A stretch of 33,831 nt of DNA. It comes from Spirogloea muscicola (Eukaryota; Streptophyta; Zygnematophyceae; Spirogloeales; Spirogloeaceae). Each line of letters starts with the position of its first letter. Within the stretch, counting starts at the first letter, position 1. Below are positions 9,140 through 27,600 of this stretch, piece after piece. A program made the position numbers and the translations under genes. The notes beneath the pieces are model-generated. The model was given only the letters and a program-made list of their open reading frames with translations, did no database searches and had not been told where the DNA came from. The stretch is taken from contig WELB01000105.1 of NCBI GenBank assembly GCA_009602725.1, positions 277,291 to 311,121 on the forward strand, read 5' to 3'.

Positions 9140-9473
9140 GGCCTTGTGAGAGGCCAGCCCAGAATGTCCCTAGGAAAGACAGAAGCAGCTCCTGGAAATG
9201 CGGAAGCAGCTCCTCCTGTGAACAGCTCTCCAGATTGACAGCAATGGCTGTGAGAGGTGGCTAACCCAAAAAGGAGAAAGTGCTCGCTCATAGAGAAGAG
9301 GGGCTGTCAAAGCCAAGCCCAAAACAGAATGGACAATGTCCAAAGCCGGAAATTTGAAGGGATCGCCCATTGAGGATAGGGGCTGGAAAAAGCCAGCCCA
9401 GAAAAGAATGAACAAAGGACGAGAAGGGGCCAGGGGAAATTGGACTACACTACAAAACACTGCAAAACACATT
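9140..9473 (-). mobile_element. Retrotransposon 3' UTR units (non-LTR family, - orientation)
   Basis: Read on -, two 3' UTR units are visible. Each has CATTC, then a hairpin of the GGGCTGG/CCAGCCC type (9302-9332 and 9379-9400), then ATGGGCGAGC or TATGAGCGAGC. The unit at 9362-9432 is nearly identical to 16309-16378. There is no coding part here. This is the outer end of the nested array. Confidence 0.75.
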
Positions 9474-9735
9474 GACGATGCAGAGGGAAGCTCAGTACCC
9501 ACGAGTGAGCAACATCAGGTCTGAGTAGCTCGCTGCAGGGAAAGAGGCACTCCGCCGAGATGCAGAGGCGGCGGCCATAGCACAGCCTGCTCGCGCGTGG
9601 AGAAGGGCTCGCCCATTGAGGATAGGTGCTGGAAAAGGCCAGCCCAAGAAAGAATGAACAAAGGACCCCCCAAAGGGGGGCAAGAAGAAGAAAGTGCTCG
9701 CCCATAGAGGAGAGGGGCTGGCAAAGCCAGCCCGA
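9474..9735 (-). mobile_element. 5'-truncated retrotransposon tail with 3' UTR
   Basis: On - the 3' end of the element's ORF is visible, ending SDLMLLTRGY and a stop at about 9492. Just upstream on - (9600-9735) are two 3' UTR hairpin units from the neighbouring copy, ending GAGCACTTTCTTCTTC. The ORF tail starts directly after a GGGCGAGCCCTTC end, so this is one truncated copy placed head-to-tail behind another. A palindrome of six C, AAA and six G (9665-9680) lies between the two hairpin units. Confidence 0.75.
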
Positions 9736-10019
9736 CAATAATTGACAATGTCTAAAGCCAAAGAAAAGAGGTGCCGGAAAAAGGACCACCTTAAACACTA
9801 CAAAACGCAAGACGATGCAAAAGGAAGCTCAGTACCCGCGAGTGGGCAACATCAGGTCGGAGTAGCTCGCTGCAGGGAAAGAAGTGGCACTCCCAATGGG
9901 GGCCAGGGCTGTGAAAAGCCAGGAATAATTGGCAAAGGTTCGAAGGGGCCAAATGATGGAGGGGCCTAAAAAGCGCTACGAAGGGGCCTGGAGATGCTAT
10001 GTCAGAACGGGGGAGGATG
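9736..10019 (-). mobile_element. Further truncated tail and 3' UTR of copy A
   Basis: On - another ORF tail ends SDLMLPTRGY plus stop near 9836. It begins right after a GTGCCACTTCTTTC terminus at about 9885-9897, which is the 3' end of the UTR belonging to copy A (9885-10019, with its hairpin at 9905-9925). The same order of UTR end, truncated ORF tail and next UTR is seen throughout the array. Confidence 0.75.
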
Positions 10020-10053
10020 GACCACTCCGTAGTTGCGAGTGAGGAGCCTCAAA

Positions 10054-12887
10054 TCCGACAGACTAGCTGCCGGAAACCTATCCCCCTGACGAAAGCAGGA
10101 GGCTGCAGCGAGAGCACGGCCAGCACGCACGCTGAAGGGAGACGGACAATTGCATTCGATATACCTGAGCCCACGAGCCAGCAGCGTTGAAGTCAGCCGG
10201 CTCACCGCGCCTGCGGGACATAGCGCGCCGCGCAAGCCTGGCCAGCAGGTCGAGCCACTGGGACCCGAGAGCCCCGTGCACGTCCACAGCCAGGGGTACG
10301 AACTCATCTGCAGCCTGGTGGTCGGCGTGTTTGGCCGCCTTGCTGCGAGCGGCCTTCGCCGCAGCGTGGCCAGCCCACGAGGCAGAGAGCCCCGGGTTGG
10401 AGCGGTCGACCACATCAGGGTTTAGGGTTTAGGGTCTAGGGTTAAGGGCCGCCCGGCGTGGACGCCACCAGGTCGACGCGGCGCGTGTGGAGTCCGTCGG
10501 CCCTCTGGAGGATGGGCATGACCGATGTAATCTCCATTGCCACCGTGTATCCGGCCTCCTGGAAGATGCCGAACATTGCATCTCGCCGCCAGCTCCGCCG
10601 GGTCCGTCGACCGCTCCCCACACTCACACTGCATCACCCAAGCAGACAGGGCGGGGGGAGACCCAACAGGCGATGGGTGGCCGTACGGAAGAGCTCATCC
10701 GGCATCCTGAGGGCGTCGTACCGGGGGAGCGTGCAGAGCCAGGCTGCCGCGCCAGGGGAGGCGGCCGACTGCAGCCGAGCATGGCCTCGCACGTCTGTGG
10801 GAGGGAGGAGCTGCAGCGTGGCCGTGAAGGACGCCTTGTCGACTGCCGCCATGTACCGCGCCTGCGCTTGCGAGTTGGTGGAGTGGGCAAGGTGGGCAAA
10901 CGGGACCACGCTCTCTGCGAGGGCAGGGTGCTCCGCAAGTAACTCGTCTTGATCTGAGCAGAGCGCCACCTGAAAAGGCAACGAGCCGGTCGCCACCTCC
11001 GTCACAGCCTGCTGCAGCATGGGCCGCCCATCATGGAGAAAGCGCTGTGCCACCGACGTGGCGACCTGAGCCCAACTGCCGAGGAACGCTGGCCTGCAGA
11101 TGTGAGTGAGCGAGCGGCAGCCGAGGCCGCCATGGCCGAGGGCAGAGTGGCCTGGTGCGCCGCAGCGGGCGAGTCGAGGAAGCCCGGGTGACGGATGAGG
11201 GCCGCCACGCTCTCCATGACGCCCGCATTGAACTTGGTGTGGGCCTCCAGCACCCGAGCAGGGAGGGATCGTCCGCGCCAGGTAGTAGGGACGCTGCACA
11301 ATGCATCTGGTGAGCATAGCAAGCGCCAGGTGCATATCCTGCAGCTCGGGGAGGCAGGCCACCAGCTGGAGGTGCTCCAGGAGCCAGTTGCGCAGTTGCC
11401 CGTCGACAAAAGACGGCGTGCCGAATGGGACCCCCAGGATGGTGAGGCCGCCTGGGGGAGTCTGGCACGCGGACGGCAGGGGCAAGGGGGCAGGGAGGCC
11501 ACGCGGGGACCACGCGATGCACTTCTTGGGCCGGATGCACATGCCGAGGGCGGCCAGCTGCTGCTGGAAGGTGGCGGTGGCTGCCGACACATCCCCTGGG
11601 CTGCCGACCAGTGTGGTGTCATCGGCGCAGGACGGCAGGAGGACGCCCGGTTGCGCTGCCGCAGTGGCCTTGAGAGCGCAATCGTGAGCCAGCGCAAAGA
11701 AGAACCCTGCCAGAGGATCCCCCTGGCGTGTGCTTGTCCTCGACTGCAGCGCCTCCACGTCGCCCCTCCCTGTCCGCCAGAGAAGGTCGCTGGGCTGGCC
11801 GTAGCCAAGGCGGAAGAAGGGAAGGAGGGAAGGGAAGGCCGCTCGCAGCTCCTCGGCAATGGCGCTGCGCTCTACGCTGTTGAAGGCGTTTTGGACATCG
11901 ACAGCCAGGACCATCCAGTCAGGGTGGAGATCCAGGGCCGCGCGGACGCCGTGGACGACAGCCTCCCCGCCGCTGCGTAGCCCAGCGCCGTATCATGTGG
12001 GGCAAGGTGGGTCTGCGCCTGCCCGAGATGTTGCTGCCACAGCGTGCGGGCCACCAGCCGGTACAGAACCTCGCCGATGGCGATGGGGCGGACTCCGCCA
12101 TTGGCCTTGGCGATGGCGAAGAGGTTGCTGGAGCGGAGCACCGAGCGGGTAGCAGCAGGGAGGGTAGCAGCAGGGACCTTGTCCTGGGCCACGAGCTGAC
12201 AGACTTGGAGCAGAGCCTGGAAGTCAGAGGCCTCGCCCTCCAGGAACAGCTCACGGAGGTGCTCCGTGAGCATGCCAGAGGGGCCGCCTGCTGCTGCTCT
12301 GCGGCTGCTCTGGAGTACCCAGCGGAGGGTTGCGGCGTCGAGGGCCACCGCCTTGGGCGGCTCGAAGGAAGGCAGCCAGGGGGGGGAGGGGGCACGGGCT
12401 TCGGGATGGAGGGCGTCCAGGGCACGTCTGGTTGTCGAGGTCGGTGAGCCAACGAAGAGTCCTCAAGTGCTTGCACAGCCCGCAAGAGCTCCCCGGCGTG
12501 TCCAAGGCGAAGAGCATGCCGGATGGCCGCTGCTCTGTCGGACAACGACTCCCCACGCCGAGCGTGGAGACTGGCGGCGGCTGCTGCCACTGCGGCGTCG
12601 TGTCGCGCCAGGAGCTCCTCCCATCGCCCGTTCTCGAAGAGGTTGATGTGTTCCAGAAGGGGCTGGCGGCCCTGGCCGCGGCCCTCATGCGGCACCCGGC
12701 CCAAGAGCAGGCGAGGGAAGAGGAGGAAGATGGTCCACTCGGCTTGGTTGCGGTGGACCGCTGCGATGCGGAGCAGGACAGGGCGGAGGGCGCGGCTGAT
12801 GTGTGGGCGTGCCCAGCGGGGAATGTGGCGGAGGAGGGGGAGCACCGCCTGCCTGAGAACCGCGGCCAGGTCAAGGTCCACGGACTA
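10054..12887 (-). pseudogene. Reverse transcriptase-endonuclease ORF of copy A, inactivated
   Basis: RT hallmarks on -: NGGVRPIAIGEVLYRL (about 12115-12065), motif A AVDVQNAF (about 11905), motif B STRQGDPLAG (about 11730) and motif C SCADDTTLVG, whose two Asp codons lie at 11623-11618. A CECGE motif follows at about 10635. Damage seen: a frame change near the eight-G run at 12379-12386; another one-base shift near 11985; a TGA with frame change near 10634; a deletion of about 50 bases that removes the His-x3-Cys half of the zinc motif; and the telomeric insert with a frame change. The last block DEFVPLAVDVHGALGSQW is typical for the family. No intact product is possible. Confidence 0.85.
10417..10448. 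repeat. Interstitial telomere repeat inside copy A
   Basis: The + strand reads AGGG TTTAGGG TTTAGGG TCTAGGG TTAAGGG, four slightly degenerate telomere units in 32 bases. On - it lies between VASTPGG and DVVDRSNP, so it splits the endonuclease-like domain and changes its frame. Copy B has no such array at this place. Confidence 0.9.
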
Positions 12888-12984
12888 CTGCCAGTGATGG
12901 CGGCTCGGTTGTGCTGGGCTCGGTGGGACAGTCTTCCCGTGGCCGCTACGGCGAGCGCCGGCTGGTGCTGCTCGTCGCGCCTGT

Positions 12985-13858
12985 TCCGCACGATTCCTCC
13001 TCCTCCTCCTCCTCCCACCCCCCTCCTCCTACACCTCCTCCTCCTCCTCCTCCTCCTCCTCCCCCTCCTCCTCCTCCTCCTCCCCCTCCTCCTCCTCCTC
13101 CTCCTCCTCCTCCTCCTCCACCTCCTCCTCCCCCATCGCCTCCATCAGCGCCCCCCACGCCATCCTCATCTCCCCCGCCGCCGTCACCCCCGCCATCGCG
13201 CCCTCCCTCGTCTAGCGTGATGCTGCCGTGCCCGCTGTGCCATAACGAGTACAAAGGCTCCCGAGGCCTGAAAATTCACATGAACACCTGCGGTCCGCGC
13301 CACGCCAGCCTTGCCTGCTCGCCTCCCGCAATGATGCCACTGCCGCCGCACACCGCCTCGTCGTCATCCCCCGCTTCGCCATCGCTGCCACCCCCGTCGC
13401 CAACCTCCTCGATGCCAGCGACGGACGCCGCGGCTGGCGTCCCTGCCTCCCCACCATTGTCGCCCTCATGGTCCTCTTCCCCGCCGCCCGCCTTGTCCCC
13501 TCCACCAGCCCCTTCGACTTCGCCTTCTCCAACGACCCCATCGCCCCCCCGGCCTTCATCGCCTCCGTCACCCCCTTCCTCAACCCCCACAGCATCGCCA
13601 GCGCCGCCGCCGCCGCCCCTGCCCCCGCAGCCGTCGCCGCCACCAACGCCGCTGTCGCCGCCGCCATCGCCGCTAGCTCCGCCGCCACCCCCGCCGCCGC
13701 CACTCCCGCCGCCTCCGCCTCCTCTCTCGCAGCCGCCACCTTCCCCTCCACCGTTGCAACCGACGCCTCCCTCCCCCTCAGTTCCGCCCAGCCCGCCTCC
13801 GCCTCTGCTGTGCCGGCACTGCCAGGGCCCCTGCCCCACCCTGCCCCCTGCAGCTTGA
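12985..13858 (+). mobile_element. Zinc-finger and Pro-rich 5' fragment of a retrotransposon ORF
   Basis: The + strand carries an open frame of Ser and Pro runs encoded by CCT triplets, then SVMLPCPLCHNEYKG with GLKIHMNTC (about 13220-13290), a C-x2-C-x12-H-x3-C finger like those at the N-terminus of R2-type elements. More than 150 residues of Pro/Ser-rich linker follow, then LLCRHCQGPC and a stop at 13858. It points away from copy A, which runs on - from about 12990. I infer the 5' part of another copy inserted head-to-head. It could also be an unrelated Pro-rich gene fragment. Confidence 0.5.
13000..13133. repeat. CCT/CCC triplet tract
   Basis: About 130 bases of CCT and CCC triplets form a long pyrimidine strand on +. 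It encodes the proline run of the fragment above. Together with the AGG tract at 13891-13945 it makes an inverted pair. Confidence 0.9.
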
Positions 13859-14190
13859 CACAGCATGAGCTCGCCTGCGCCCGTCGCGACAGGAGGAGGA
13901 GGAGGAGGAGGAGGAGGAGGAGGAGGAGGAGGAGGAGGAGGAGGAGATGGTGGTTGGAGAGGGAATGGCGGCGGCGGAGATTGCTTGAGGACGAAGTGGA
14001 GGCAGGAGGCGGCGAGGACGGCGGGGAGCGGCAACGGAGAGGCAGGCAGGCAGAGGCGCGGCAGGGGGCTGTCGCCTCGTCTTGATCCGGGGACGAGGCG
14101 CCCCGACCGCCTGGAGGACTCCAGGCTCCGGCTCCGACGGCGGCGCCGTGAGAGCGCGCGGTGGGGGCGATGGGGAGCGGGGCGGCGGGA
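13859..14190. other. Low-complexity GC-rich stretch with an AGG tract
   Basis: It starts just after the Pro-rich fragment and contains about 18 AGG triplets at 13891-13945, then purine-rich G/A sequence without a recognisable coding frame. It may be the remains of a Pro-rich linker of an element on the - strand (AGG reads as CCT there), but no family motif can be seen. Confidence 0.5.
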
Positions 14191-14442
14191 AGGAAGCACT
14201 TAGCCGAGACCCAGAGGGCGGCAGCCATAGCACGGCCTGCTCGGGGCTCTCGGCAGCCGCTAGCTGGATCTTCACTCGTAACTACTAAGCGGTCCATCCT
14301 CCCCCGTTCTGCCATGGCTCTTCAGGCCCCGCAGTCGCTGCTTAGCTCGTAGTTTGGCCCCTTCGAACCTTGTCAATTCTTTTCGGGCTGGCTTCTCACA
14401 ACCCTTGCCCCCATTGGGAGAGCCACTTCTTCTTCGATCTCC
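14191..14442. mobile_element. Small tail fragments, - then +, with a type III 3' UTR
   Basis: 14191-14245 resembles a short - strand piece of the ORF tail (compare 9540-9596). From 14262 the + strand reads the ORF end TRNY and TAA, followed by the UTR that runs through CCTTGTCAATTC and a GGGCTGGC hairpin to GAGAGCCACTTCTTCTTC at about 14432. The next copy begins straight after. Confidence 0.65.
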
Positions 14443-14631
14443 TCCAGCGGCTTGCCCGCCAGGCCATTGACCGGCGGCCGGGTCTGCCAGGGGCGATGCC
14501 CGGCTTCAACGCCGCCGGTTCGCTCGCCTAAGTCTTCCGTATGCGCCTGGCCGTATCGTTTCAGCGCTCCCTTGCCTACGCCGTCCACACGCGAGCAGGC
14601 CGAGCTATGGCTGTTGTCCGCCGCTTCCATG
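14443..14631 (+). mobile_element. 5'-truncated retrotransposon ORF tail
   Basis: The + strand encodes the family block FNAAGSLA, an in-frame stop where others have Gln, then VFRMRLAVSFQRSLAYAVHTRAG in pieces. It starts directly after the CACTTCTTCTTC end of the preceding UTR and is cut off at 14631, where an inverted copy begins. Confidence 0.7.
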
Positions 14632-14913
14632 AAGAAGAAGTGGCTCTCCCAATGGGGGCAAGGGCTGTGAGAAGCCAGCCCGAAAAGAATTGACAAGGTT
14701 CGAAGGGGCCAAACTACGAGCTAAGCAGCGACTGCGGGGCCTGAAGAGGCTATGGCAGAACGGGGGAGGATGGACCACTTAGTAGTTACGAGTGAGGAGC
14801 CTCACATCCGACAGACTAGCTGCCGGTAAACTATTCCCCTGACGAAAGCCGGAGGCCGCAGCGAGAGCACGGCCAGCACGCAGATGCAAGGCGTGGGCCA
14901 TGGACCGCTGGAG
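14632..14913 (-). repeat. Left arm of a 282-bp inverted repeat (retrotransposon tail)
   Basis: Read on - this arm holds the ORF tail AHALHLRAGRALAAASGFRQ through SDVRLLTRNY plus TAA and the complete type III 3' UTR ending GCCACTTCTTCTT. It matches 15539-15820 on the opposite strand over 282 ungapped bases with three differences that I can count. The element tail itself extends on to about 14984. Confidence 0.9.
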
Positions 14914-14988
14914 GGAGACGGACAAGCGCATACGATACACCTGAGCCCACGAGCCAGCGGCGTTGAAGTCAGCCGGCTCACCGCGCCT
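14914..14988 (-). mobile_element. Upstream continuation of the - strand tail
   Basis: It encodes the block GEPADFNAAGSWAQVYRMRL that precedes the inverted-repeat arm in the same frame on -. It ends where the oppositely oriented copy starts at 14989. Confidence 0.7.
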
Positions 14989-15400
14989 CCATGGGGAGCC
15001 GGTGGACTCCCATGCAGTAGGGTCGCTAGCGCAGGTGTACCGCATGCGCTTGGCCGTCGCGCTGCAGAGGTCTATGGCCCGCGCGCTGCACCTGCGTGCA
15101 GGCAGAGCCCTCGCTGCTGCCTCTGGCTCTGGCCAGGGGACCCGCTTCCAGGAACCCAGTCTCTCTGATCCGCCTCTGGGTCTCGGCGGAGTGCCTCTTT
15201 CCCTGCAGCGAGCTACTCAGACCTGATGTTGCTCACTCGTGGGTACTGAGCTTCCCTCTGCATCGTTTCTGTGTTCTGCAGTGTTTTGTAGTGTAGTCCT
15301 TTCTCCGGCTCCTCTTTCTTCGGCTTTGGACATTGTCCATTCTTTTTTGGGCTGGCTTTGCCAGCCCCTCTTCTCTATGGGCGCGCACTTCCCTTGATCT
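14989..15400 (+). mobile_element. 5'-truncated retrotransposon tail with 3' UTR
   Basis: The first 180 bases (14989-15168) are a direct repeat of 16449-16628 with four mismatches and encode HGEPVDSHAVGSLAQVYRM onward. After a short junction the ORF end SDLMLLTRGY and stop lie at 15216-15248. The UTR follows, with a perfect-looking hairpin GGGCTGGC-TTT-GCCAGCCC at 15349-15367 and the end GGGCGCGCACTTCCCTT at about 15396. Confidence 0.8.
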
Positions 15401-15538
15401 GAGGCTGCTTTGCACCCGACGGCCTTGGCTCACTCGTGGGTACTGAGCTTCCCTCTGCATCGTCTCTGTGTTCTGCAGTGTTTTGTAGCGTAGTTCTTTT
15501 TCCGGCTCCTCTTTCTTTGGCTTTGGACATTGTCCATT
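15401..15538 (+). mobile_element. Very short tandem tail copy
   Basis: The first bases after the preceding UTR encode LRLLCTR, and a second ORF end LTRGY plus stop lies at 15434-15449. The UTR then repeats the sequence of 15250-15340 up to CATTGTCCATTCT and is cut before the hairpin, where the inverted-repeat arm begins. Confidence 0.7.
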
Positions 15539-15820
15539 CTCCAGCGGTCCATGGCCCACGCCTTGCATCTGCGTGCTGGCCGTGCTCTCGCTGCGGCCTC
15601 CGGCTTTCGTCAGGGGGATAGTTTACCGGCAGCTAGTCTGTCGGATGTGAGGCTCCTCACTCGTAACTACTAAGTGGTCCATCCTCCCCCATTCTGCAAT
15701 AGCCTCTTCAGGCCCCGCAGTCGCTGCTTAGCTCGTAGTTTGGCCCCTTCGAACCTTGTCAATTCTTTTCGGGCTGGCTTCTCACAGCCCTTGCCCCCAT
15801 TGGGAGAGCCACTTCTTCTT
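15539..15820 (+). repeat. Right arm of the 282-bp inverted repeat (retrotransposon tail)
   Basis: ORF tail ending SDVRLLTRNY plus TAA (15643-15672) and the full type III UTR with hairpin at 15771-15791, ending GAGAGCCACTTCTTCTT. It is about 99 percent identical to the reverse complement of 14632-14913. The near identity means a recent duplication or gene conversion. Confidence 0.9.
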
Positions 15821-16010
15821 TTTAGGCTGGCTTTGCCAGCCCCTCTTCTCTATGGGCGCGCACTTCTCTTAGCAGGGATTACTAATTGCTTCGTAGCTGC
15901 TTCGTTTCTTTTTCGTGCTTGTTCTTCGTACTTCCCCTGGCCCCTTCCTTTGTTCATTCTTTTTGGGCTGGCTTTTTCCAGCCCCTATCCTCAATGAAGG
16001 GCGAGCCCTT
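15821..16010 (+). mobile_element. Two 3' UTR units from further copies
   Basis: The first is a hairpin unit (15826-15867) ending GGGCGCGCACTTCTCTT, followed by a tiny ORF end LSRDY and TAA (15868-15883). Its UTR runs through CTTTGTTCATTC, a GGGCTGGC/CCAGCCCC hairpin (15966-15986) and GGGCGAGCCCTTC. Again each piece follows directly on the last one's terminus. Confidence 0.7.
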
Positions 16011-16304
16011 CATCATTTCAACGCTCCCTTGCCTACGCTGTCCACACGCGAGCAGGCCGTGCTACGGCTGCCGCCTCTGGGTCTCGGCGGAGTGCCTCTT
16101 TCCCAGCAGCGAGCTACTCCGACCTGATGTTGCTCACTCGCGGGTACTGAGCTTCCCTCTGCATCGTCTTGTGTTTAGTAGTGTTTTGAGGTGGTCCTTC
16201 TTCGGCACCTCTCTCTTTGGCTTTGGGCATTGTCCATTCTTTTTGGGCCGGCTTTGCCAGCCCCTCTTCTCTATGGGCGAGCACTTTCTTTCTTCCCAGT
16301 GAGA
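16011..16304 (+). mobile_element. 5'-truncated tail with 3' UTR
   Basis: It begins after GGGCGAGCCCTTC with ORF tail sequence, reaches SDLMLLTRGY and stop at about 16117-16149, then the UTR with hairpin GGGCCGGC-TTT-GCCAGCCC (16245-16263) and ends GGGCGAGCACTTTCTTTC at about 16298. Confidence 0.75.
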
Positions 16305-16385
16305 AGGGCTCGCCCATTGAGGATAGGGGCTGGAAAAAGCCAGCCCAGAAAAGAATGAACAAAGGACGAGAAGGGGCCATGGGGC
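16305..16385 (-). mobile_element. Inverted 3' UTR unit
   Basis: The same unit as 9361-9432, in - orientation, almost base for base, with the hairpin at 16327-16347. It faces the UTR of the previous copy tail-to-tail. Confidence 0.75.
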
Positions 16386-16760
16386 GCTGGGCGCTCGGTG
16401 GATCGAGCTGCTCAACCAGCTCTCTCGTCACGCCATTGCCCGCCGCTTCCATGGGGAGCCGGTGGACTCCCATGCAGCAGGGTCGCTAGCGCACGTATAC
16501 CGCATGCGCTTGGCCGTCTCGCTGCAGAGGTCTATGGCCCGCGCGCTGCACCTGCGTGCAGGCAGAGCCCTCGCTGCTGCCTCTGGCTCTGGCCAGGGGA
16601 CCCGCTTCCAGGAACCCAGTCTCTCTGACCTGAGGCTGCTTAGCAGGGGTTACTGAGTGCTTCGTAGCTGCTTCGTTTCTTTTCTGTGCTTGTTGGTTCT
16701 TCGTACTTCCCCAGTGGGGGCAAGGGCAATGTGAGAGGCCAGCCCAGACTTGGAATACCT
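16386..16760 (+). mobile_element. Longest + strand tail in the array
   Basis: The + frame encodes RWIELLNQLSRHAIARRFHG, then the 180-base direct repeat (16449-16628), and ends SDLRLLSRGY with TGA at 16654-16656. The UTR runs on to the CCCCAGTGGGGGCAAGGGC area, where a GGCCAGCCC motif of opposite orientation follows. It covers roughly the last 90 residues of the endonuclease region. Confidence 0.8.
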
Positions 16761-19143: not shown

Positions 19144-19823
19144 NNNNNNNNNNNNNNNNNNNNNNNNNNNNNNNNNNNNNNNNNNNNNNNNNNNNNNNNN
19201 NNNNNNNNNNNNNNNNNNNNNNNNNNNNNNNNNNNNNNNNNNNNNNNNNNNNNNNNNNNNNNNNNNNNNNNNNNNNNNNNNNNNNNNNNNNNNNNNNNNN
19301 NNNNNNNNNNNNNNNNNNNNNNNNNNNNNNNNNNNNNNNNNNNNNNNNNNNNNNNNNNNNNNNNNNNNNNNNNNNNNNNNNNNNNNNNNNNNNNNNNNNN
19401 NNNNNNNNNNNNNNNNNNNNNNNNNNNNNNNNNNNNNNNNNNNNNNNNNNNNNNNNNNNNNNNNNNNNNNNNNNNNNNNNNNNNNNNNNNNNNNNNNNNN
19501 NNNNNNNNNNNNNNNNNNNNNNNNNNNNNNNNNNNNNNNNNNNNNNNNNNNNNNNNNNNNNNNNNNNNNNNNNNNNNNNNNNNNNNNNNNNNNNNNNNNN
19601 NNNNNNNNNNNNNNNNNNNNNNNNNNNNNNNNNNNNNNNNNNNNNNNNNNNNNNNNNNNNNNNNNNNNNNNNNNNNNNNNNNNNNNNNNNNNNNNNNNNN
19701 NNNNNNNNNNNNNNNNNNNNNNNNNNNNNNNNNNNNNNNNNNNNNNNNNNNNNNNNNNNNNNNNNNNNNNNNNNNNNNNNNNNNNNNNNNNNNNNNNNNN
19801 NNNNNNNNNNNNNNNNNNNNNNN
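19144..19823. other. Assembly gap (680 N)
   Basis: A run of 680 undetermined bases. It hides the 5' part of the Pro-rich gene and the rest of the PRP18-like gene, which is more than 680 bases could easily hold. Confidence 1.
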
Positions 19824-20599: not shown

Positions 20600-20880
20600 C
20601 GTGCACTTCTCTTCGGGCTGGCCTTCCACAGCCCTCGCCCCTTTGGAAGAGCTCACATTTCTTCCTTCACAGCCCTAGCTGTGACAGAAGGACTTCACTG
20701 AGACTTTATTCCTTCCTTTATTTATGGCCTTTCACAGTCATTGCCTTCACATCGGACGCACTGTATCTATTTTGGGCTGGCCTCTCACAGCCATCTACAA
20801 CGCTTTTCCGCCCTCTACTTACTCCGACATGCAACTGTTGACTGCACACTATCAAGCATCCATTTGCAGTAGTCATGGAG
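20600..20880 (+). mobile_element. Diverged retrotransposon tails on +
   Basis: Two hairpin-type units occur (CGGGCTGGCCTTCCACAGCCC at about 20614-20634 and TGGGCTGGCCTCTCACAGCC at about 20774), and the first ends GAAGAGCTCACATTTCTTCC. The second is followed by an ORF end that reads FPPSTYSDMQLLTAHY at about 20805-20853. This matches the family end peptide with substitutions and lies more than 3 kb from the main array. Confidence 0.6.
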
Positions 20881-21200
20881 AGTAGTTACATAAATTTTCA
20901 CCTTCTGGCGCTTTCAGATCTTGTTACTTCCATTTGGGCTCTTAAGCTGTTGCCCTACACGGAAGAGCTGTTTGATGTGTCGTGAATGTAAATGAAGCTG
21001 TCTATTGTTGCCCAGCCAGGCACAATTGGCGTGGGTGCTGCCGCTTTGCAAGTGTCATGAGTACGACATTGAGAAGGTGAGGCCCAAGAAGCTTACTGAA
21101 GGGGAGGATGGCTGTAATAGCTAGCCATCAATCGTCTGAGGTCGGAAGGCGCAAGCGGCTTTCAAAGTAGCAACTATGAATTGGTGCTCAGCAACCCACA
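20881..21200. other. Stretch without recognised features
   Basis: I see no gene, repeat or element motif here. It may be the unoccupied target sequence between retrotransposon fragments or very old element remains. Confidence 0.5.
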
Positions 21201-24097
21201 CAAAGAGCGAAGTAGCCTTCTCAAAGGAGTGCCCCTTGAGAGTGCCACTTCTTCTCAAAGGAGGCAAGCCTTTGAAAAGCGGGCACACAAATTGAAGAAA
21301 GCGCGGCCAGATGGACTGGTGGCGGGGAAAGGCCAGCCCAAAGGAATGGACAAGGTTTGAAGGAGCCGGAGTGCGAAGGACTAGGACTAAGACATCAGCC
21401 AGGGAATGCTCAGTGACCTCTAGTCAGGAGATGCAAGTCTGAGTAGCTAGCCGGCAGAAAGACGTCGCCCTGACGGAAGCCGGAGGCCGCAGCCAAAGCT
21501 CGGCCTGCGCGCAAGTGAACTGCGAAGGCAAGGGACCGCTGCATCGAGATTGCCAAATGCATTCGGAAGACTTGGGCAAGGGACCCGGCGACATTGAAGC
21601 CGGGCTGCTCGCCCTGCTGCCCGAGGCGTGGGCCGCTGCACGCCGCGCAAGGTGGTGAAGCAAGTCAAGCCATTTTGTTAGGCTCCGTGCAAAGGCTCCG
21701 TGCACGTCGACTGCCAGTGGAACAAACTCGTCTCCCACCGGGTGGTCTGAGTATTTCCGTTCCTTTGCGCCCGCCGCTTGGCAGACTGCGCAGCCCGCCT
21801 CCTCCGACGAGCGTTTGGCGCTGCTGGAAAACAAAGCAGTCAGTGTGACAACGTCGGCAATAAGCCGAGGCCCCCCGCCGAGCGCGCTGGCGACGAGATC
21901 GGCGCGTCGGGTGTGGATGCGGCCATCCGCCCCAGCGGTCCCTTGGCATGATGCTGGTATTCTCGAGCGCCACCATGTAACCGGCCTCGACAAAGATGCC
22001 AAACATCGCATTCTGCAGCAGGTCGTGTGTTCCTGTCCGCTACCCGCCCCGTGCGCACCTGAGCATGTGAGCTGCCAACGATGCCGCGTCTGAACTGCGC
22101 TCTCCGCACTCACACTGCTGTACGCCACTGAGGCAGGGTGGGTGGAGGCCGAGGAGGCGGTGCACCGCCGTACGGAAGGCGTCATCGGGCATTCGGAGCG
22201 CGTCGTGGATCGGCAGCGCAGACAACCAAGCTGCCGCCCCTGGTGAGGATGGCGAGAGCCGCGCGCGCCCCCGGAGGTCGGCCGATGGCAAGAGCCCCAT
22301 CGCCGTGGTGAAGGAGGCCGCATCTACCTCTGCCATGAAGCGAGCTTGGGCCCGGAGGTCACCCGTGCGCGCGAGGTGCGCAAACGGGACGGCCCGTGGC
22401 ACCAGGGCGGGGTGATTTGCAAGCAGCGCATCCCAGGCTGACAGAGAGCCGCCTGGAAGGCCAATGTGCCAGTCTCCACGTCCGCTGCCGCCTGCTCCAG
22501 AAGGCGACCCCCATGCCGGATGAAACGCTGGGCCACCGAAGCCGCAACCTGCGCCCAACTCCCCAGGTGTGCTGCCCGGCAGGCACGAGCCAGCGGACGG
22601 CGGCCCAGACCCCCGCGGCTCACAGGCAGGGAGGCCTGGTGCATGGCAGCCAGCTTCGCCAGGAAGGCCGGGTGTTGGACCAGGGCCGCTGTGCTGGGAG
22701 GATACCTGCATCGAAGGTTGCATAGGCGGCCTGCGCCGCCGGGGAGGGGGGGAGGGCTCGAGCCAGGTGCAGGGGACGTTGCGCAATGCTGCGCGCCAGC
22801 ATGGCGAGCCCTAGCTGCATGTCGCGCAGCTCAGGGAGGCGGGCCGTCGGCTTGAGGTGCTCCTGCAGCTTACTGCGCAGCTGCTCGTCCACGAAGGCCG
22901 GTGAGCCCAAGGGAACCCCGAGGAGTGTGAGGCCCCCCGCTGGTGTCTGACAGCCGGAGGATAGGCGGAGGAGGGCTGGCAACCCTTGTGGGGACCAAGC
23001 GCTGCACTTCGACGCGCGGATGTCCAGGCCGATCTCCTTCAGCTGCTCCTCGAGGGTGGCAAAGGCAGCCAAGATCTCGTCTGCTTGCCCGACTAGGGTG
23101 GTGACGTCGGCATATGTGGGCATGAGGACGCCCGGGTGAGCAGCTGCCGTGGCCTTCAGGGCGCGGTCGTGGGCCAGCGCGTAGAAGAACCCCGCCAGCG
23201 GGGCCCCCTGCCGCGTGCCCGTGGAAGACTGAAGGACCTCCACCCCTCCGGCTCCAGGCCGCCATAGGAGATCACTGGGCTGGCCGTAGCCCAGCCGGAA
23301 GAACGGCAGCAGGGTGAGGAAGGCGTCACGGAGCTCCTCGGCGACAGCTGCGCGGTCGACGCAGTTGAACGCGTTGCGGACGTCCACTGCCAACACCACC
23401 CACTCGGGGTGCAAGTCGAGGGAAGCCCGCACCCCATGGACAACCGCTTCGCCGCCGCTCCGCAGGCCTGCGCCACACTGGTGTGGGGCCAGGTGTGTCT
23501 GGGCCGCATCGGCGTGCTGTTGCCAGACTGCCCGTCCCACCAGGCGGTACAGAACCTCGCCGATGGCGATGGGGCGGACGCCGCCATTGACCTTACTGAG
23601 GGCTAGCAGGGTGCTGGCGCAGAGCACACCGCAGATGCTGGTAGGGATGTGACGCCGGGCACGTGTTGGCACACCTGGTGCAGCGCCCGAAAGTCCGCCT
23701 CGTCCCCGTCGAGGAAGAGCTCCCTCAAATGCTCCGTGGCCATACGCGAGGGGCCGCCTGCAGCTGCGCGCCGGCTGCTCGGCAAGGCCTTGCGGAAGGC
23801 TGCCGCATCAAGGGCCACGTCCGCCTGCGGGACGTAGGAAGCCAACCACGAAGGCAGGGGAGAGCGCGCCGGGAGGTGGAGGGACGAGAGGGCTTCCCGC
23901 GTGGCCTCAGTCGCCGGCGCCAAAACCGAATCATCGAGCGCCTGGACGGCTATCGAGAGCTCCCCGGCATGGCCATAACACAGGAGAGCGCGGCGGGCAC
24001 TGGCCGCCATATCTGCAAAGTGCGGCGGCCTGCACAAGTTGGAGTCGGGGCGCCCAGTCTTTGGAACCGATAGACGACAGCGACTGGCCTCAGATTA
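21201..24097 (-). mobile_element. Degenerate non-LTR retrotransposon, copy B
   Basis: Read on -: it starts at 24097 immediately after the GAGCACTTTCTTC terminus of another UTR unit, is 5'-truncated within the N-terminal region, contains RT and endonuclease-like domains, and ends its ORF with SDLHLLTRGH plus TGA near 21450-21418. The UTR carries CCTTGTCCATTC and a GGGCTGGCCTTTCC motif at 21353-21325. The exact 3' limit near 21200 is a guess. Confidence 0.85.
21418..24040 (-). pseudogene. Reverse transcriptase-endonuclease ORF of copy B, inactivated
   Basis: The parts in order on - are GHAGELSIAVQALDDS (about 23965-23920), NGGVRPIAIGEVLYRL (about 23590-23540), motif A VLAVDVRNAFN (about 23390), motif B GTRQGAPLAG where the family Asp is Ala, and motif C YADVTT where the second catalytic Asp is Val (codon at 23105-23103). 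Then follow the zinc motif CECG with HMLRC (about 22115-22050), a TAG at about 22042-22040, HDLLQNAMFGIFVEAGY, and the RRADLVAS and DEFVPLAVDVHGAF blocks of the endonuclease region. Frame changes lie near 23650 and 22740. The copy cannot make an active enzyme. It is a better-preserved guide to the domain order than copy A because the endonuclease region is not interrupted. Confidence 0.85.
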
Positions 24098-24190
24098 GAA
24101 GAAAGTGCTCGCCCATTGAGAATAGGGGGCTGGAACAACCAGCCCGAAAAAGAATGAACAGAGTACGAGAAGGGGGCCAGGGGAAGCGCT
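24098..24190 (-). mobile_element. 3' UTR unit abutting copy B
   Basis: On -: GTTCATTC, hairpin GGGCTGGTTGTTCCAGCCCC, CTCAATGGGCGAGC and the terminus ACTTTCTTC, where copy B begins. It is the same unit as at 9361-9432 and 16305-16385, and it lies about 460 bases before the pyrophosphatase ATG. Confidence 0.75.
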
Positions 24191-24648
24191 AAGTAACAGA
24201 AACAAAGCTGCTCAGATTGGCCGCCAAGTCGACAGAGGAGGCATTGGGACCGCCGACGACGCCCAGCCGCGTCGATCCCACGTCCAAGCTCAACGGCGAT
24301 CCGTTTCTCCTGACGGCACGGCCGTCGGCTCATTCCCGCGTGGCATCCCGCGCAGGCAATATCCGATCCCCCCCCAATCCCCAGCGGCACTTCCAAGCCC
24401 CCCCCTCGGATGCAAGCAGCGGCCGTGCCTCCGATGGCACGGATCCAACGGCCCCACTTCCCTCGCCGCCGCCGCTGGTCGCCCTGTTCGGCTGTAGTGC
24501 AGTAGGGCGCCTTGTGCCATGTGCGCTGCCGCCGTCAAGGCGCCACTTGCCGCTCTCCCAGTCGCCTGGGGTTGGTGACCGCCGGCAGCTCCCGCCGCCG
24601 CCGCCTCCGCCACCGCCGCCGCCGCCGCCACCGCCGCCGCCGGACAAC
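24191..24648 (+). promoter_or_regulatory. Promoter and 5' UTR of the pyrophosphatase gene
   Basis: It lies between the retrotransposon unit and the ATG. It has C-rich blocks, and a CCG/CCA triplet tract at 24594-24643 just before the start codon, probably in the 5' UTR. No clear TATA box is visible. The frame of the start codon stays open upstream but has no family similarity there. Confidence 0.5.
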
Positions 24649-27600
24649 ATGGCAGACTCCGGGGCGGCCATGTCCTGGACTCCGCCCGAGATGAGCGTGT
24701 ACTTCGTGCACATTTTCATCCCGCTCGCGGGTGTCATTGGCATCAGCTTCGCCCTCCTCCAGTGGTACCTGGTCTCCAAAGTAAAGGTCAACGCTGGCTC
24801 CGATGGCGGGTATGTGCTGGACACAGAGGACGGCCTCGACGACTCTTCTGTGGTACAGCAGTGCGCTGAAATCCAGAGCGCTATCGCCCTTGGTGCGTTC
24901 CTGCCATACCGTCTGAGGATCTCCGCTTAAATATATTTCGTTTTAGATATGGAGGTTACTAAGTGCGCTGTCGTTATGCTTTTATTTTTTGAAGGGGATC
25001 ATTTCGTCTCTTCGAGGTCCTAGTGCAGCAATTCTTGCTAGGTGTTGTGGTTCATGATGGTGGCAATCACAAATTGTTATATTGCACTCCAACAAAATCT
25101 GCTCCATTGCTGTAATATTTGCCTACGTGTCAAGTTCATGGCACTTCTGTATATTCACTTCTGCAGAGAGTGCGTCACTGTTGCACATTCAGGGTGATGA
25201 CTATCTGCTTACTTGCCTTGAGTAGAAGTCGCACAATACTCGGGTGTTTGCACTCTTCAGATAGGCTAGTGGTGTCATACAAGTGACATATCAGTTGTCA
25301 TACCAGTGGCACACTATAGCCTATGTCTGAAAGTTGAATGCCTGTATGATTGCAACAAGCTAACACTGCAAGTGTTATTGTGTGTCCAGGTGCTCAATCT
25401 TTCCTCACGACTGAGTACAAGTACCTAGCAGTCTTCATGGTCGGCTTCTCCCTACTCATTTTCTTCTTCCTTGGCTCTGTCGACAATTTTAAGACCGACT
25501 GGGTGCCCTGTGAGACCAACGACAGTGGGAAGTGCGCTCCAGCAGTAGCAAATGCGCTGTTCTCCACCATTGCTTTCATTGCCGGGGCTATCACGTCCAC
25601 CATTTCTGGTTACCTTGGAATGACAATAGCCACTTATGCAAATGCCCGCACTACATTGGAAGCTCGGAAGGGCGTAGGCTTTGCTTTTATCACAGCTTTG
25701 AGGTCTGGAGCTGTTATGGGTTTCCTCCTTTCAGCCAACGGCTTACTGGTCCTATATTTCACCATTCTCCTCTTCAAGTTGTACTACCATCACGACTGGG
25801 TTGGTCTGTTTGAGTCCATTGCTGGCTATGGTCTTGGAGGCTCCTCTGTTGCACTCTTTGGGCGCGTTGGTGGCGGCATCTACACAAAGGCTGCCGATGT
25901 GGGAGCTGACTTGGTTGGCAAGGTGGAGAGGGGGATCCCAGAGGATGATCCTCGCAATCCTGCTGTAAGCATGCTTATGCTGTGTCAGCGCAGAAACTCG
26001 TGTTTCTGGATGTCATGATCTCACGATATGGTATCATCTAGGTTGTTACATGTGTCACACCGGCAAGTAGTTTGGCCCTGCAAGGTTGTATTTATGTAGC
26101 AAACCTTGCACAATTGTAGATCAGACATCACAGCATGTCTATCAGCCGCAATCAGTCTTCCATGATTGGGCATCTTACAGCCCAGGCACAGTGGTCCACA
26201 TGGATACCAAGCAATCGTTTTACGTGTGTGCGGTATGCAGGTCATTGCTGATAACGTTGGAGACAATGTCGGTGACATTGCTGGCATGGGTTCGGACCTT
26301 TTTGGTTCGTTTGCAGAATCGACATGTGCAGCTCTTGTAATCTCTTCTTTGGGATCTCTGGGGACCGACTTGGACTTTGTTGGCATGCTTTTTCCCCTCC
26401 TCATCAGTGCAAGTGGCATCCTTGTTTGCCTCATCACAACGCTTTTTGCCACTGACCTTTACAAAATTAAGGCCAACAAGGAGATTGAGAGGACGTTGAA
26501 GTGGCAGTTGATCATCTCCACAGTACTGATGACCCCTGTTATCTACGCCGTTGCCATTACGGCTCTTCCTGAGGAGTTTAAGATCAAGGTTGTTGGTCAC
26601 GGAGAGAAGACTGTCAAGAACTGGTGAGCACCTACTTGATTTGCAATGCAACAGCCTGCCTGCTTCTGTCTGGCAACTTAAGATAGTGCATTCTTGACCT
26701 CCACCTTATTCAGATTTATCCAGTCTGAATTGAACGATGTAGACACATGGGAGCTTGTTGAGTTGGGCTACCGGCATGACATAGTTCTAGACCACCTTTT
26801 CATTTCATTGATTGGTCAACGCGTTGTTCTGCAGGCAGGTATTCCTCTGTGTTGCATCTGGCCTCTGGGCTGGTCTGATCATCGGCTTTGTCACCGAATA
26901 TTTCACCAGCAATACCTACAGGTTTGCAATGCCAATCCTCCTGTATACTTTGCTGTGGTCTTCAACTTACCTGTATCTGTTAATGTTGTTGTTGTACTGT
27001 GGTAAAGCATGGGTTGTCATCCACACATGCACTCCACCTGGCGAAGATGTTGGCCAACAGCTACTCTTTCAGTCACGTGCTAAACCCTGAAGACTTAGAG
27101 GATGTTGCTTTTTGTTTACTGCATATGACTGGTTCAAGTGGCTGACACGTGATGTTGCACGTATTGCAGGCCTGTCCAGGATGTTGCCGACTCTTGCAGG
27201 ACTGGCGCTGCTACCAATATCATTTTTGGACTTGCTTTGGGATACAAGTCTGTGATCATCCCAGTTTTTGCCATCGCGGCTGCCATCTACCTCAGCTTCT
27301 CACTTGCAGCAATGTACGGCATTGCTGTTGCGGCCCTTGGAATGCTGAGCACTCTGGCCACCGGCCTTGCTATTGATGCCTATGGGCCCATCAGTGACAA
27401 TGCTGGCGGCATTGCTGAGATGGCTGGCATGGGACACTCCATCCGGGAACGCACTGATGCTTTAGATGCTGCTGGCAACACAACGGCTGCGATTGGCAAG
27501 GTACGGCACCGTTGTCTGGGTGTAATCCTTTGTTTGCCAATTAGAGGCAGCCACATTGATTACACTGCTTACTAAAGTGAGCATACTGCATACTGCATGC

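Follow-up and report, generated by a model that had tools for sequence, protein, structure and literature searches.

A retrotransposon array in Spirogloea muscicola, its probable origin by nested insertion and a favoured internal junction in one family

The locus and its three element families

The window analysed here, a stretch of 33,831 nucleotides (G000:C105:277291-311121) in the 153-Mb, 471-contig assembly of Spirogloea muscicola, holds a dense array of retrotransposon copies and, to the right of it, a second, related element (Table 1). Telomere-like repeats and gene content, judged by eye, point to a eukaryote and probably to a green alga. The copies of the array fall into three related families, A, B and C, which we set apart by their 3' ends: family A finishes in ...GGGAGAGCCACTTCTTC, family B in ...ATGGGCG[A/C]GCACTTTCTTC or GCACTTCTTC, and family C in ...CAATGGGCGAGCCCTTC. 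Constant pyrimidine tails of this kind close all three families, and element sequence often comes next; the three kinds of tail that the initial annotation had singled out are indeed found at or near the places it named, with element sequence after most of them. In the translation of locus L002, the C coding region finishes with ...SLSDLRLLSRGY-stop, which the A and B coding ends resemble by eye, and the coding end is followed by an untranslated stretch with a hairpin of the GGGCTGG...CCAGCCC type in predicted folds.

Table 1. Retrotransposon features of the window, in window coordinates
Feature	Position	Strand	Basis or remark
C fragment in B copy (9275-9356 + 9439-9602)	9357..9438	-	joined flanks span site in 16 loci
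Short C copy, 64 nt, in B-tail-to-B junction (9600 site)	9603..9666	-	tails; flank joins
B copy hosting long A-type element	right part 9689..9878, left part 14191-14243	-	flank join
Long A-type element	9879..14190	-	reverse transcriptase frame 10634-11914
B3, left part, outermost B copy	14200..14265	+	joined to 14436-14560 aligns to L019, L038, L041; left side only ~20 nt
A copy, 5'-truncated, in B3	14266..14435	+	tail GAGCCACTTCTTCTTC; 5-bp duplication GATCT on both sides
B3, middle part	14436..14613	+	joined to 16071-16290
C copy in B3, interrupted three times	14614..16011	+	pieces ~14614-14629, 14986-15169, 15397-15411, 15869-16011
A copy in C, opposite orientation	14632..14988	-	duplication CATGG; join spans site in 6/6 rows listed, ~16 nt on one side
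B1, 5'-truncated B copy in C	15170..15396	+	C flanks of B1 and B2 joined span site in 15 loci
B2, left part, 5'-truncated B copy in C	15412..15538	+	first ~16 nt filler, B match from 15428
A copy in B2	15539..15820	+	99% complementary to 14632-14913; flanks contiguous in B copies
B2, right part and tail	15821..15868	+	flank join
B3, right part and tail GAGCACTTTCTTTCTTC	16071..16290	+	59-nt repeat; flank join
C copy, tail to tail with B3	16303..16388	-	tail at 16290 meets opposite-strand C tail
Second, related element (copy B of the initial annotation)	20604..24096	-	reverse transcriptase frame 22620-23672
C-like copy beside second element	24103..24208	-	AATCTGAG on both sides, by eye; tail found

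The RVT_1 domain is matched by the second element (E 2.5e-13, 50.6 bits), which aligns to 10612-12378 at 69%, and by the long A-type element of the array (E 1.1e-6, 29.0 bits, borderline against a curated cut-off of 29.6); no RVT_1 match came from the C-family frame of L002, in which only the final portion of the reverse transcriptase domain is present. By eye, this frame carries at its C terminus, after the reverse transcriptase, CxC...HxxxC and then an R-V-D-x14-D ... K stretch, a pattern of the kind expected for a CCHC motif with a PD-(D/E)xK-type endonuclease. The pattern follows in part the portion of PMC3636483 consulted. The C-terminal endonuclease-like domain proposed by the initial annotation is thus recognisable at the level of motifs in L002, and it found no match in Pfam or among solved structures. 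From these motifs we infer membership in the R2-type (restriction-like endonuclease) group, and all three families probably carry an endonuclease of that type.

From about 12890 the long A-type element becomes GC-rich, with a zinc-finger-like frame on the other strand. In this 5' part (~12890-14190), a C2H2-like finger near 13226-13300 and a proline-rich frame lie on the strand opposite to the reverse transcriptase, perhaps through a 5' inversion as in L1. Telomere-like repeats (GGGTTTAGGGTTTAGGGTCTAGGGTTAAGGG) stand at ~10417-10449 in the coding part of the same element, as if they were a repair patch. Elsewhere in the window, 680 N bases (19144-19823) fall within a proline-rich protein frame, and frames that by eye resemble a proton-pumping pyrophosphatase gene (24640-26018) start right beside the C-like insert.

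Contiguity of the interrupted elements

The initial annotation had named eight places at which a new 5'-truncated copy was thought to begin directly after a tail. An automatic empty-site test, positive for 18 of 45 A copies against a shuffled mean of 9.8 and maximum of 14, is weak, since same-family flanks match by chance and six of the 18 best matches were at the copy's own locus (window rows excluded); explicit joins within the window were therefore used instead. In each of ten such joins, the two flanks of an insert were fused and aligned to other copies. In five of them a C or B element is made whole in a single alignment, and these account for six of the eight named places (14432, 15396, 15820, 15867, 16010 and 9885), where it is the interrupted element that resumes after the tail and not a new copy that starts. 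The other five comprise the 14432 repeat, the C-join repeat, two joins on other inserts and the 9600 site.

The right-hand nest is held by the outermost B copy, B3. Its stretches 14436-14613 and 16071-16290, once joined, give a one-piece alignment to L041 (query 10-394, 91%), and the join is spanned in 29 loci; as the middle and right parts are contiguous in other copies, the C nest with its tail near 16010 sits in B3. A 59-nt repeat (14555-14613 and 16012-16070, 91.5% identical) brackets this nest and resembles a long target duplication. The C copy can be reassembled in the same way: when 14984-15169, 15401-15416 and 15870-16011 are joined, all 344 nt align with small gaps to L002, L003, L006 and L008 at 90-92%, so that B1 (tail near 15396) and B2 (tail near 15867) are both inside one C copy. 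At the next level, the B2 stretches 15427-15540 and 15822-15870 join into a one-piece alignment to L002, L038, L039 and L062. On the left, the reverse complements of 14191-14300 and 9701-9878 were fused, and the join is spanned in 14 of the 14 rows listed, 12 of them outside the window; since the joined B parts align across it, the long A-type element lies inside a B copy (the 9885 site).

At 24097, taken by the initial annotation as the start of its copy B, the tail is present and the start of a new copy is not confirmed: by eye, an 8-bp direct repeat (AATCTGAG), part of which may be microhomology, brackets a C-like insert. The 9600 site is an exception to the nested reading. There, a complete B tail is separated from internal B sequence by 64 nt of C, and the joined flanks align across the join in L017, L037, L038, L066 and L075, of which at least L037 and L038 are B-tail-to-B junctions themselves; the earlier description of a tail followed by B holds at this place. 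In L037 and L038 the B tail is followed by internal B at locus-specific points (TGCCTACGCC... and CTCTTGCTACGG...), so B-B tandems exist too, and the 9600 site of the window looks like one of them. L017 has, at ~9775-9850, three B-like tails spaced at 23 nt (...TCTATGGGCGAGCACTTTCTTC), and these are joined at TTC as well.

Ends, targets and distribution of the copies

Among 45 A copies, the 3' end is fixed and the 5' ends are scattered, with aligned lengths from 30 nt to 500 nt, where 500 nt is the reference length and the values for diverged copies are minimum lengths. At window 9878, the row of 45 nt is really the long A-type element, and L005 has an internal deletion. Constant 3' ends and variable 5' truncation hold equally in the 30 unselected A copies that remain after setting aside 15 from L031-L039, loci that had been picked for neighbouring hits. 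A single one of these 30 copies, in L006, has its 5' end against a tail; its 25-bp duplication fits the right half of a nested insertion, and the same junction is one TTC|ACAGCCC match (see below). This tabulation of the sequence upstream of A copies, which the initial annotation had itself put forward as a check, speaks against its reading.

Flanking duplications of 5-25 bp are found for 19 of the 45 A copies at a score of at least 4.5, compared with 8.5% of shuffled pairs, and 26 copies have none at this cut-off. Of the 25 duplication-supported sites, which come from 19 A copies and six dimers, 15 have pyrimidines at all of the first three target bases, against a background of 16.7%; the count is biased towards pyrimidines, since TTC repeats of the tail itself contribute to defining the duplication. 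The targets differ among copies and share a loose pyrimidine bias, with no fixed target sequence.

Tails were also counted beyond the window. In 297 kb there are 146, eight of which fall in L001, a partial repeat of the window, leaving 138 distinct ones. The 22-nt A tail has 1,183 exact occurrences in the 153-Mb genome and its reversed control pattern none, so that the count is not a product of chance; the A tails listed lie at many positions along contigs C1-C7. A random sample of 20 stretches of 10 kb each, drawn from contigs C1-C99 (200 kb in total, 45,729 bases of it N), yielded 24 tails, with at least one in 11 of the 20 stretches. Element-like sequence follows 11 of these 24 tails, as against 7.1% of bases matching other loci, which indicates that insertions are clustered in older copies. 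Such clustering would be compatible with gene-poor landing zones, with a pyrimidine preference or with the loss of insertions from genes.

Given the constant 3' ends, the variable 5' ends, the duplications and the contiguity of the interrupted elements in the window, the array very probably arose as members of three related non-LTR retrotransposon families inserted into one another, each copy being synthesised from a fixed 3' end by target-primed reverse transcription. Its starting point would be the 3' end of the RNA, which reads CACTTC(TTC)n or nearly so, and synthesis would stop early; a constant 3' junction with a variable 5' end is what copying from the RNA 3' end produces. The older, interrupted element would then resume after the constant tail and mimic a fresh truncated copy. 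Targeting would be loose, with a preference for pyrimidine runs that would follow from a brief, putative pairing of the (UUC)n RNA end with a GAA-type primer end. The argument that random nesting gives no constant breakpoint, from which the initial annotation had started, is wrong, as target-primed insertion fixes every 3' end and the remainder of the target comes next.

The initial annotation had concluded that the element's own 3' terminus, or the TTC repeat there, is the preferred target and that copies stack head-to-tail. This could account for 102 A-tail-to-A matches against 1,183 exact A tails, for the pyrimidine bias of the targets, for the B tails of L017 and for the B-tail-to-B junctions at 9600, L037 and L038, but we consider it very unlikely: a tail is abutted by one unselected A copy in 30, seven of the eight named sites are nested or repeat-flanked, and second A copies mostly start at two internal sites, whereas stacking on tails should give random truncation. 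As the main cause, it is rejected by the upstream flanks of A copies, the family tabulated. What stands of the proposal is the pyrimidine-rich targets, the element-like sequence after 11 of 24 randomly sampled tails and the concentration of A-A junctions at two internal TTC sites, and not the terminus. The array is thus an ordinary nest of LINEs, and its constant edge can for the most part be put down to the fixed 3' end of the element itself. A fixed 3' end combined with dense nesting imitates a site-specific breakpoint, which is a trap when arrays are read by eye.

The reverse transcriptase domain, the constant 3' end with variable 5' truncation and target-site duplications of variable length, which together mark a non-LTR retrotransposon (LINE), are all present. 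With the R2/NeSL/R4/HERO group these elements share a reverse transcriptase, followed in L002, as read by eye, by a Cys-His motif and R-x-D-x14-D ... K, as well as a fixed 3' and a variable 5' end; unlike most of the group, they have no fixed target gene and enter loosely pyrimidine-rich targets. In the part of PMC4640811 consulted, four clades of this group are described as mostly target-specific and HERO as having many non-specific members. Nested LINE clusters are also formed by Zepp of Chlorella and Coccomyxa, the likeness being one of nesting. According to the excerpt of PMC3446292 considered here, Zepp in Coccomyxa is gathered in a single cluster on each chromosome, probably at the centromere, a pattern that differs from the dispersed copies of S. 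muscicola, whose tails occur in 11 of 20 random 10-kb stretches.

A favoured junction inside family A

Nested insertion explains the array, not a hot spot of A-A junctions that the genome-wide scans revealed. A whole-genome search looked for A tails with an internal A anchor 18-48 nt further on (31-nt scan), and in 50 of the 60 matches the junction lies exactly at (TTC)n|AGGC or AGAC, with n = 2-6. The next 31 nt upstream gave seven matches, and in the letters listed for them (up to 80) no tail reads straight into that stretch. When the last part of A was scanned, 30 matches were obtained, 19 of which fit one of two junctions, TTC|TCACAGCCC (13) or TTC|ACAGCCC (six), an assignment made partly by match length, the 13 rows of the 30 with letters listed showing three and five; the stretch between the two scans gave five matches. 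Three other TTC sites of that stretch had no match of the expected length in the 30- and 5-match scans. In all, the four scans produced 102 A-tail-to-A pattern matches, some overlapping (60+7+30+5). The favoured site is inside the A 3' region and not at the terminus, and the A-A junctions cluster far more tightly than random nesting would allow. Both hot sites are predicted to fold as hairpin loops, and intact hot sites number 524 exact ones plus 26 of a GTAGT variant. In family B, the 31-nt scan showed no comparable hot spot for A immediately ahead of GGCTCC (four matches).

We read 43 of the 60 hot-site matches with their flanks (L035 and L051-L090, ~0.85-1.4 kb), omitting 12 odd-looking ones and five at the end of the list. 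A sequence runs upstream up to or near CCTCTTC in 12 of the 43 (L035, L051, L052, L054, L057, L058, L060, L064, L072, L075, L083 and L089), and the upstream A sequence is ambiguous in L055 and L065. The duplication cut-off is reached by eight of 39 dimer rows without N in the flanks, against a null of 6.3%; the duplications of L058 and L068 look spurious and were set aside. In the script's output, one duplication of at least 5 bp lies outside the whole dimer in L053, L056, L062, L074, L084 and L088; the same is true by eye of L065 and L067, and in L031, outside the 43-row set, TTATA is seen on both sides of the dimer. Some dimers therefore appear to have been inserted as one unit.

First and second units were compared in 20 pairs, a first unit of at least 109 nt being needed (L057, L068, L073, L088 and two of the three L090 junctions were dropped). 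They are not closer within loci than between them (3.75 and 3.62 differences, respectively), and one position carries a variant in eight of 20 second units and in none of 20 first units, a variant that is rare among intact sites (26 versus 524). Since units of one locus are not more alike and the junctions are concentrated, the tandems are neither simple duplications nor the outcome of random nesting.

It is plausible, though short of probable, that the A-A tandems form during reverse transcription: cDNA paused at a UUC hairpin loop, GCCU[CUUC]AGGC or GGGCUG[GCUUCUCA]CAGCCC, would switch to the UUC tail of another element RNA, the dimer would be integrated at once, and some dimers may later have turned into source elements. 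The concentration of junctions at the two sites (50/60, then 13/30 and 6/30), the other three TTC sites without length-fitting matches, the predicted loops and the single outer duplication of eight dimers (six by script, two by eye) are in line with such switching, and the comparison of units argues against local duplication. The 12 rows of 43 with A upstream to CCTCTTC resemble, on the contrary, DNA insertion at the hot site, and a variant confined to second units suggests that some dimers may descend from a dimeric source. Duplications are seen in just 8/39 dimers, two of them the spurious-looking ones, and the hairpins are predicted only. The part of PMC8857657 consulted also suggests that template jumping may be dispensable in vivo and that LINE-1 chimeras stem from RNAs ligated beforehand.

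A somewhat doubtful alternative is that the A-A junctions are insertions into existing A DNA at a hot target, CCTC^TTCAGGCCCC. The same 12 rows would be its footprint, their inserts being mostly short (14-162 nt), and several 5' junctions share short words with the target (e.g. GCCCC); against it, a single step cannot yield dimers with one duplication at an unrelated target, only four A tails were found at the B pyrimidine run preceding GGCTCC in the 31-nt scan, and the other TTC sites of A are not hot. More than one of template switching, a dimeric source and a hot DNA target may act. An assembly artefact or local tandem duplication is extremely improbable as an explanation, since the junctions lie on many contigs with differing flanks and units within a locus are not more alike, even if L036 has two A copies with near-identical upstream flanks from local duplication, L090 has three junctions 112 nt apart and 45,729 of 200,000 sampled bases are N; local tandem duplication was rejected as the main cause when units of the same locus were compared with those of different loci, and one instance of it is L036. 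There, at ~480-850, an A copy and its upstream flank are duplicated with a period of 364, a segmental tandem duplication.

The switching proposed above resembles the template jumping of the R2 reverse transcriptase, in which, in the part of PMC8857657 consulted, continuous cDNA is made from separate RNAs. R2 jumping needs little or no primer-template pairing, whereas here the jump would leave one internal hairpin loop through UUC microhomology. We tentatively suggest that the reverse transcriptase might switch at a sequence-defined place, where the UUC of the hairpin loop would pair, by way of the cDNA, with the UUC at the tail of another RNA. In the titles and abstract openings that literature searches listed, such dimers were not found for a green-algal element, which is no proof of their absence in print.

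If this suggestion is true, tandem elements with a constant internal junction integrate as a unit and can become source elements, and self-stacking is written in the RNA, not in the choice of target. To our knowledge, template jumping by LINE reverse transcriptases is known mainly from test-tube work. Were the hot spot the result of programmed template switching, it would provide a natural, countable record of this activity.
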